NCBI RefSeq assembly: GCF_000148645.1
Contig: NC_014541.1
Coordinates: forward strand, 372,001-436,000
Reading direction: 5' to 3'
Source: Ferrimonas balearica DSM 9799
Lineage (GTDB): Bacteria > Pseudomonadota > Gammaproteobacteria > Enterobacterales > Shewanellaceae
DNA: 64,000 bases
The position numbers and the translations under genes were made by a program. A model generated the notes under the pieces. The model did no database searches. It saw nothing but the letters and a program-made list of their open reading frames with translations, and was not told where the DNA came from. Shown here piece after piece: positions 47,572 to 49,498 of this stretch. How positions within the stretch are numbered: position 1 is the first letter of the stretch; the number at the start of each line of letters is the position of its first letter.

Positions 47572-48048
47572 TCAGCTGGCTTCGCTGTGACGCTCAAACA
47601 GCGCTTCAAGCAAACGGTCTTCCAGTTCGAACCGCTCCTCCATCTTCTGGCCCAGTTCAGACAGATCCTGATCCAGCTCCATCATGATGTCGTCATTGAC
47701 GCCGTTGGTGTACTTGTCGTTGAAATCGAGCGCGGCATCGGTACTGGCGGAGATTTTGGGCACCAGGCTTTGGGCAAGGGCCTTGGCGTGTTCGCCACTC
47801 TGCTCGCAGGCAGTGGATACCTGGTCGTAGACCTCAAAATGCCCCTCAGACATGTAGTCCACCAGCAGATTGCAGAACTGTTGAACGCGGGTTTCGTCCG
47901 GAAGGTGGCCCTTCTCCCCCTCATAGGGCGGTAATCCGGCCAGTTGGCAGTAGTGGATCAGTAACTGACGACGACTTTCCAGCCAGTTATCGATAAGCGT
48001 ATTGGAGCCTCCCCAGGCGTCCACGGCCCTTTCTAACTTTGTCAGCAT
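47572..48048 (-). CDS. rsd: Anti-sigma-70 factor Rsd/AlgQ
   Basis: Binds free sigma-70 and frees RNA polymerase for alternative sigma factors in stationary phase. The 158-residue product equals E. coli Rsd in length, with matching segments GGSNTLIDNWLESRRQLLIHY, FCNLLVDYMSEGHFEVYDQV and the C-terminal ELGQKMEERFELEDRLL. The ATG at 48048 has AGAGGA eight bases upstream; an in-frame TTG at 48066 is rejected. rsd lies beside hemE in E. coli too, but there on the same strand with nudC between them. Confidence 0.93.
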   Translation of the reverse strand: MLTKLERAVDAWGGSNTLIDNWLESRRQLLIHYCQLAGLPPYEGEKGHLPDETRVQQFCNLLVDYMSEGHFEVYDQVSTACEQSGEHAKALAQSLVPKISASTDAALDFNDKYTNGVNDDIMMELDQDLSELGQKMEERFELEDRLLEALFERHSEAS

Positions 48049-48090
48049 GGCACCATCCTCTTGCAAGCCAACCTTTATTGGTATTACCCA

Positions 48091-48119
48091 ATTTAAGTAA
48101 GGGATGGCTCAGGGATCAA
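48091..48119 (-). promoter_or_regulatory. Candidate rsd promoter
   Basis: On the minus strand TTGATC (48119-48114), 17 bases, TTAAAT (48096-48091), giving a leader of about 35 bases to rsd. It lies downstream of the candidate small RNA terminator, so rsd need not depend on that transcript. Confidence 0.4.
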
Positions 48120-48173
48120 CGCTTTTTTAACATCGAACCGAAGATTCTGCTGTGGGGACGGGAGAGGGGAAAT

Positions 48174-48201
48174 AAAAAACCCTGACGCCGAGGCGTCAGG
48201 G
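48174..48201 (-). terminator. Strong minus-strand terminator of the candidate small RNA
   Basis: Ten perfect pairs and six consecutive Ts on the minus strand; on the plus strand no T-run follows, so the terminator has one direction only. No annotated minus-strand gene ends here, which is what flags an unannotated transcript. Confidence 0.88.
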
Positions 48202-48261
48202 CATAAGATTGGGTGTTGCGGGACTCACTGACGTGAGCTTCTTACTTCGTTTTGCTAGCGC
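48174..48261 (-). ncRNA. Candidate trans-acting small RNA (about 88 nt) between rsd and hemE
   Basis: The 385 bases between rsd and hemE hold no credible reading frame. On the minus strand they show a promoter (48296-48268), then about 60 bases with a small hairpin CTCAC-GTCA-GTGAG (48237-48224), then a single-stranded stretch TCCCGCAACACCCAATC, and then a perfect 10-pair hairpin CCCTGACGCC / GGCGTCAGGG (48201-48180) followed by TTTTTTATT. This is the architecture of an Hfq-dependent small RNA. It does not match RyhB, Spot 42 or FnrS from memory. The alternative is a leader with an attenuator for rsd. Expression is not shown by sequence. Confidence 0.55.
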
Positions 48262-48267
48262 GGTATT

Positions 48268-48296
48268 GTTATACCAAAGGCGAATAGGGAGTGCAA
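48268..48296 (-). promoter_or_regulatory. Candidate small RNA promoter
   Basis: On the minus strand TTGCAC (48296-48291), a 17-base spacer and TATAAC (48273-48268), with TG one base upstream of the -10 (extended -10). Confidence 0.5.
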
Positions 48297-48433: not shown

Positions 48434-49498
48434 ATGTCAGAACTGAAAAACGATCGTTACCTGCGAGCGCTGCTGCGTCAGCCGGTAGATGTGACCCCGG
48501 TTTGGATGATGCGTCAAGCAGGCCGTTACCTACCGGAATACCGGGCCACCCGCGCCGAAGCCGGCGACTTTATGAGCCTGTGCAAGAACCCCGAGCTGGC
48601 CTGCGAAGTCACTCTCCAACCTCTGCGCCGCTTCCCCCTCGACGCTGCGATTCTCTTCTCCGACATCCTGACCATTCCTGATGCCATGGGCCTGGGTCTC
48701 TACTTCGAGACCGGTGAAGGTCCGCGCTTCCAGACTCTGGCTGACAACAAAGCCACCATCGAAAACCTGCCGATCCCGGATCCGGAGCAGGAGCTGGGTT
48801 ACGTGATGGACGCCGTGCGCACCATCCGTCGCGAGCTGAAAGGTGAAGTGCCGCTGATCGGTTTCTCCGGCAGCCCGTGGACTCTGGCCACCTACATGGT
48901 GGAAGGCGGCAGCTCCAAAGACTTCGCCAAGATTAAGAAGATGGCTTTTGCCGAACCGGCTACCCTGCACCTGCTGCTGGACAAGCTGGCGGACTCCGTC
49001 ATTCTGTACCTGAACGCCCAGATCAAAGCCGGTGCACAGGCGGTACAGATCTTTGATACCTGGGGTGGCGCACTGTCCGGCCCGGCGTACCGCGAGTTCT
49101 CTCTGCGTTACATGCACAAGATCGTTGATGGCCTGATCCGCGACTACGACGGCCACAAAGTGCCGGTTGTACTGTTCACCAAAGGTGGCGGTCAGTGGCT
49201 GGAAGACATCGCGGCCACCGGCTGTGACGCTGTGGGTCTGGACTGGACCGTTGACGTTAAGGCCGCCCGTGCCCGCGTCGGCGACAAAGTGGCCCTGCAG
49301 GGCAACATGGACCCGTCCATGCTGTACGCACCGGTTCCGCGTATCGAAGAGGAAGTGGAGCGCATCCTGGGCGAATTCGGCCACGGTGACGGCCACGTCT
49401 TCAACCTGGGCCACGGCATTCACCAGCACGCCGATCCGGAGCACGCTGGCGCCTTTATCAATGCCGTTCACGAGCTGTCTCGCAAGTACCACAAGTAA
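48434..49498 (+). CDS. hemE: Uroporphyrinogen decarboxylase HemE
   Basis: Cytoplasmic enzyme converting uroporphyrinogen III to coproporphyrinogen III in heme synthesis. The 354-residue length equals that of E. coli. N-terminal [17 protein letters not shown] provides the conserved arginines of the active site; [15 protein letters not shown] supplies the catalytic Asp; [17 protein letters not shown] and the C-terminal [15 protein letters not shown] complete the signature. An AAGGGA site precedes the ATG. Single gene with its own promoter and terminator. Confidence 0.98.

Follow-up and report, generated by a model that had tools for sequence, protein, structure and literature searches.

A probable small-RNA gene in the rsd-hemE spacer of Ferrimonas balearica and its relatives

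The spacer between rsd and hemE

The window that we analysed is a stretch of 64,000 nucleotides from the genome of Ferrimonas balearica DSM 9799, which consists of a single contig of 4,279,159 bases. Within this window, the gene for the sigma D regulator Rsd (47572 to 48048, minus strand; NF008723, 204.5 bits; PF04353; the ATG at 48048 is taken as the start) and hemE, the gene for uroporphyrinogen decarboxylase (48434 to 49498, plus strand; TIGR01464, 451 bits), enclose a gap from which a small RNA of 88 nt (48174 to 48261, minus strand) would be transcribed divergently from hemE. The covariance model R1, built from 29 sequences, matches this RNA with 65.7 bits (E = 3.8e-11), a score that has to be read in the knowledge that this very sequence belongs to R1's own set. 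The interval from 48174 to 48296 delimited in the initial annotation corresponds to the RNA together with its promoter.

The promoter comprises, on the minus strand, the -35 element TTGCAC (48296-48291), a spacer of 17 bases and the extended -10 element TGGTATAAC (48268 to 48276), made up of TG at 48276-48275 and TATAAC at 48273-48268; transcription would start at G48261 after a discriminator of 6 nt. A simple promoter scan did not pick up TTGCAC/TATAAC because just three of the six letters of the -35 hexamer agree with the consensus. Despite this miss, the element is kept across species. Among 81 distinct relatives (taken from 96 matches after exclusion of L163, L165, L166, L223 and one reverse match), a hexamer beginning with TTGC occupies the fixed positions -35 to -30 in at least 62, TATAAA or TATAAC is found at -12 to -7 in 68, and 37% reach a promoter score of 10 or higher versus 0.6% of composition shuffles. 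The extended -10 promoter with a 17-base spacer that the initial annotation had described is hence both present and retained in relatives.

At its 3' end, the RNA is predicted to finish in the T run (48179-48174) that follows a stem of 10 pairs closed by a 4-base loop (48202-48179), an arrangement typed as an intrinsic terminator with U6 (48174 to 48202). An earlier description of this element as ten perfect pairs plus T6 holds for the 10-pair stem and the T run; the pairs themselves are not all perfect, nine being Watson-Crick and the outermost one G.U. Three terminator-like sites were detected in the 1.6 kb scanned, and only the one at 48202-48179 exceeds 5 pairs; shuffled sequence yielded a mean of 1.5 such sites. 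The fold of the RNA (computed on 89 nt) has an energy of -31.8 kcal/mol (z = -4.3), and none of 200 shuffles was equally stable. Judged by its sequence, the RNA would thus possess a promoter and an intrinsic terminator of its own. That simple scans meet such sites in shuffled sequence could be taken to mean that a chance terminator and a promoter-like sequence happen to share this spacer; against the conservation across families and the covariation described below, we give this explanation practically no credence.

Four elements precede the terminator. The 5' element GCGCUAGCAA (48252 to 48261), the proposed seed, takes part in two weak pairs and is otherwise unpaired. It is followed by an A-rich spacer (48239 to 48251; 64% A in 80 relatives), whose A-R-N triplets are a candidate contact site for Hfq, by hairpin 1 (GCUCAC-GUCA-GUGAGU; 48223 to 48238), whose GCTCAC/GTGAGT arms are present at 48238-48223, and by the C-rich linker UCCCGCAACACCC (48211 to 48223).

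Conservation, distribution and changing neighbours

When a query of 367 bases was searched against 60 genomes, it matched 14 of them (the own genome counted), the short matches being centred on the RNA; rsd and hemE flank the RNA in all 14 loci. Mean pairwise identity across these loci is 0.81 for the 5' end plus spacer (48238-48261), 0.70 each for the promoter and the hairpin, 0.63 for the terminator and 0.60 for the C-rich linker, with 0.50 and 0.49 in the two flanks, so that the identity peak of the syntenic loci falls on the RNA and its promoter. This alignment had been suggested as a check at the outset, and in it the promoter, the hairpin and the RNA proved better conserved than their surroundings. 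It speaks against the proposal that the C-rich segment TCCCGCAACACCC is the pairing region: this segment is kept in 4 of the 14 loci (L001-L004, the only ones with the linker form CCCGCAACACCC), whereas the 5' end GCGCTAGCAA is the most conserved part.

A second conserved block (48087-48126; identity 0.65-0.67 in the 14 loci) lies 3' of the RNA terminator. On the minus strand it contains TTGATC-17-TTAAAT (48091 to 48119); TTGAT is present in 14/14 loci and is followed 17 bases further by TTAAAT or TTAAAC in 10 of them, the other four carrying TTAACT, CTACAT, CTACAG and TACATT there. This promoter-like block is positioned such that it may serve rsd from beyond the terminator of the RNA.

The two helices are also conserved as pairs. 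In the MAFFT alignment A1, the paired share of cells is 87.2% and two-sided changes affect 10 of 16 pairs, while controls in which the structure was slid along gave 30-45% paired cells and 3-5 two-sided pairs; one of five covariation measures in A1, that for further pair types, was equalled by 160 of 500 shuffles. Alignments fitted to the structure, and hence biased in its favour, raised these values to 97.5% of cells and 15/16 pairs (A3) and to 96.8% and 15/16 (A5; slid controls 27.9-52.5%), with two-sided changes at 11/11 model pairs of the terminator in the structure-fitted A5. A terminator stem covaries of necessity, and hairpin 1 is therefore the helix that counts independently: its cells are paired to 99.3% in A1 and to 97.1% in A5, and two-sided changes affect two of its five pairs in A1 and four of five in A5. 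RNAalifold applied to A1 recovered hairpin 1 and missed the terminator, a part that MAFFT had misaligned between clades. Spacer lengths in relatives differ by indels that are not multiples of 3, which argues against a peptide encoded by this region.

To follow the RNA beyond these loci, we used covariance models that were grown stepwise from earlier matches, all of which include the 5' word. In the family, R1 found the RNA in 85 of 96 genomes, once per genome. The 11 genomes without a match are G001, G010 and G011 of Ferrimonas, all five of genus g4, two of g3 and one of the two of g5; the 5' word is absent from the spacers of G001, G010 and G023. When 10 of the 11 were searched again under laxer settings, just three weak places turned up, all within two genomes (E 0.024-0.057); one of these places was inspected and found to be unrelated. 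The large sister genus, g2, we take to be Shewanella, and we expect the RNA to occur in S. oneidensis MR-1 as well.

Across the order, R1 matched 36 of 295 genomes and R2 62 of 394, one of the latter probably by chance, and the absences are not firm because searches over 40 genomes ran with strict filters. The R2 matches are distributed over f1 (32), f6 (9), f7 (9), f20 (6), f13 (3), f4 (2) and f3 (1), and R3 added one further genome, from f14 (L229). A class-wide model search with strict filters gave matches in 2 of 369 genomes, both of this order. We put the single f3 match (L223) down to chance, along with L163/L231, L165, L166 and L232-L234, and discarded a reverse-strand match in L022; a match in f17 (L230/L254) lies near dsbB, and its 5' word is not clear. 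Six of a total of 15 weak places were examined. In Escherichia coli, hemE alone matches (5370 of 5426 genomes), and the hemE, dsbB and yhgF regions of MG1655 gave a top model score of 11.9 bits. Four viral contigs fit a pattern with a top model score of 21 bits, which we regard as chance, and no plasmid matched when the RNA of one relative served as the query.

The genes that accompany the RNA differ between families. In all, the RNA adjoins hemE in three families, and tblastn placed hemE beside it in 9/9 loci of f6 and 6/6 of f20. In f7, tex is present in 9/9 loci and dsbB in 8/9, and both genes occur in the 3/3 loci of f13, the 2/2 of f4 and the single locus of f14; Pfam confirmed Tex in the one protein submitted and DsbB in 4/4.

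This distribution bears on the possibility, raised in the initial annotation, that the RNA is an attenuated 5' leader of rsd, starting at 48261 and with its terminator deciding on rsd transcription. In its favour, the RNA shares contig and strand with rsd in 85/85 family genomes, 102-588 nt upstream of it (median 135), and rsd is found in the same stretch in 5/6 loci of f20 and 2/9 of f6. In the f4 genome G038 (L162/L188) the genes are arranged tex - small RNA - dsbB - rsd, so that proximity to rsd is not wholly limited to f1 and f20; this gene order may link the tex-dsbB and rsd-hemE addresses. A leader would lie directly upstream of the gene that it leads and share its promoter, and this arrangement is not what we found. 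The promoter-like block stands between the terminator and rsd. Within stretches of about 2.8-7 kb, beyond which an rsd gene may lie, rsd was not found in 7 of the 9 f6 loci, all beside hemE, and appears in 0/9 loci of f7 and 0/3 of f13, yet the promoter and RNA are still kept there. We accordingly consider the leader improbable, if slightly less so in the light of G038. Since the neighbours change and rsd has a promoter-like block of its own past the terminator, 48261-48174 (minus strand) is most likely an independent small-RNA gene. The promoter and the 5' end persist while the companionship of rsd is frequent without being constant, which marks the RNA itself as the conserved unit. Conservation, covariance-model matches and covariation together uphold the initial proposal that the rsd-hemE gap harbours an unannotated gene for a small RNA, equipped with a promoter and a terminator of its own.

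The 5' end and the search for partners

Our reading of the locus as a whole, to which we assign a probability of roughly 0.72, is that of an independent small-RNA gene whose product is an Hfq-dependent, trans-acting regulator with its seed at the 5' end. A conserved extended -10 promoter of the sigma-70 type would drive synthesis of the 88-nt RNA up to the intrinsic terminator, Hfq would hold the RNA at its 3' U tail, its A-rich spacer or both, and pairing with mRNAs would take place through the unpaired 5' end GCGCUAGCAA. Conservation, the promoter and terminator sequences, the covarying helices, the change of neighbours and the hfq gene of the host genome (TIGR02383, 100.3 bits) are the observations from which we infer expression, start site, Hfq binding, action through a 5' seed and the existence of any target.

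The conserved parts of the RNA are the unpaired 5' end GCGCUAGCAA, the A-rich spacer, the small hairpin and the covarying terminator. GCUAG, almost unpaired in the fold, occupies RNA positions 3-7 in 80 of the 81 distinct relatives, the full GCGCUAGCAA is present in 57 of the 81, and GCGCTAGCAA opens the RNA in 47/47 of the loci L045-L091, counts that are not independent because the searching models already contain the word. An accessible 5' end under strict conservation is typical of seeds. The linker is similar inside lineages and different between families. Relatives at the tex-dsbB address (L208, L210, L213, L216-L218, L221, L224, L225 and L229) have a further stretch in common, UGCAGACUGGAAA, which lies between hairpin and terminator and is missing from the hemE group; pairing specific to this lineage may take place there.

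Sites complementary to the proposed seed are rare. In the host genome (G000), the anti-seed TTGCTAGC occurs at 10 sites, one of which is the RNA gene itself, versus 50 for the reversed control. Avoidance of CTAG is general, and the rarity of TTGCTAGC would make a seed built on CUAG specific. We searched for TTGCTAGCG in 8 genomes, for TTGCTAGC in 5 and for TGCTAGC-N0-22-ATG in 14. Neither TTGCTAGCG nor TGCTAGC-N0-22-ATG revealed a conserved partner among the matches listed. For TTGCTAGC, 74 of the 80 sites in the five genomes were compared, the gene's own site (four of five genomes) and two sites of G009 being excluded, and no orthologous perfect 8-base site was found beyond three close Ferrimonas genomes: the same position recurred between genomes in three pairs, all within G000, G004 and G007. 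One of these positions is in the leader of a gene that by eye looks DUF1302-like; TGCTAGC is kept there roughly 100 nt ahead of the gene (L177, L139 and L247). TGCTAGC is likewise kept upstream of a gcvR-like gene, again so named by eye, in the close Ferrimonas genomes G000, G003 and G004 (L235, L236 and L237). Both are weak candidates for targets, and neither is convincing.

One could accordingly suppose that the small RNA is real and that its 5' GCGCUAGC does not act as a seed for mRNAs, the lineage-specific linker doing the pairing instead and the 5' word serving initiation, 5'-end protection, self-pairing (through the palindrome GCUAGC) or contact with a protein. The outcome of the anti-seed searches, in which no conserved perfect site was found, is consistent with this, as is the likeness of linkers within lineages, for instance UGCAGACUGGAAA in the tex-dsbB group. 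That linkers diverge between families where the 5' end scarcely varies argues in the other direction, and we hold this version to be rather unlikely.

A further proposal concerns haem. An hfq mutant of Shewanella oneidensis suffers from a haem shortage that arises at the gtrA step, for which the 2014 study offered an unidentified small RNA as one possible cause (PMC4214671). The RNA described here could be conceived of as this missing regulator, which would depend on Hfq and promote haem synthesis in Shewanella by activating hemA (gtrA) mRNA, and its position beside hemE in three families would fit. When 58 nt of the RNA were paired with the hemA leader, one of 20 genomes (G060) beat all 80 shuffles and three more ranked in the lowest 3; yet the mean z was just -0.67, with shuffles that preserve base composition only. 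With the 5' 22-24 nt, none of the 20 genomes paired better than the best of 60 shuffles, G005 coming close. The relatives at tex-dsbB have no evident link to haem. Taken over the 20 genomes, hemA/gtrA received no consistent support as a target; as the gtrA regulator the RNA is conceivable yet unsupported, and we judge the proposal very improbable.

Relation to described RNAs

Rfam 15 gave no match at gathering score in the whole window or in six relatives, and weak matches only at a relaxed E-value. The sole likeness to Hrs10 (RF02632) is a weak full-length match on the opposite strand (18.2 bits, E = 0.12; the gathering score is 108), which we attribute to chance. With no Rfam 15 family matching, the RNA is left unannotated by Rfam-based pipelines in Ferrimonas, the sister genera and the further families. 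Literature searches, judged by titles and the openings of abstracts, brought up no description of a small RNA at either rsd-hemE or tex-dsbB. A comparative UTR screen of Shewanella piezotolerans WP3 and relatives proposed 193 trans small-RNA candidates in WP3; as far as its main text goes, 'heme' and 'rsd' are absent, and given the size of this candidate set the RNA could be among them (PMC5471319).

Conservation this deep is unusual among uncatalogued small RNAs. A broader interpretation, which we advance only tentatively and think doubtful as a whole, would see in it an undescribed small RNA that belongs to the core of several families within a single gammaproteobacterial order. Its seed, containing the rare word CUAG, would restrict it to very few partners, and its gene is found at two recurrent addresses, hemE and tex-dsbB, near both of which rsd is found (once in the case of tex-dsbB), with promoter and 5' end kept. 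If true, functions in respiration, haem or the envelope might be tied to the growth state.

With regard to its architecture, the independent small-RNA gene that we favour resembles two kinds of known regulators. ChiX and MgrR are Hfq-dependent small RNAs rich in A-R-N (class II-like). They share with the RNA studied here an A-rich spacer with A-R-N triplets close to the 5' end; unlike theirs, the spacer here comes after a strongly conserved 5' word, and its contact with Hfq is putative. A-R-N has been described as an Hfq motif (PMC4104026). The other likeness is to a type represented by three RNAs, of intergenic origin, with a sigma-70-type promoter of their own, a length of about 90 nt, a hairpin, a terminator with U tail, and an unpaired 5' end as the most conserved part. 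RybB, FnrS and SdsR, which make up this type, are Hfq-dependent trans-acting small RNAs with a seed at the 5' end; the RNA of the rsd-hemE spacer agrees with them, as predicted from its sequence, in origin, promoter, length, hairpin, terminator and 5' end, and differs in that it has no Rfam match, that its binding to Hfq and its targets are hypothetical, and that its proposed seed is built on the rare CUAG.
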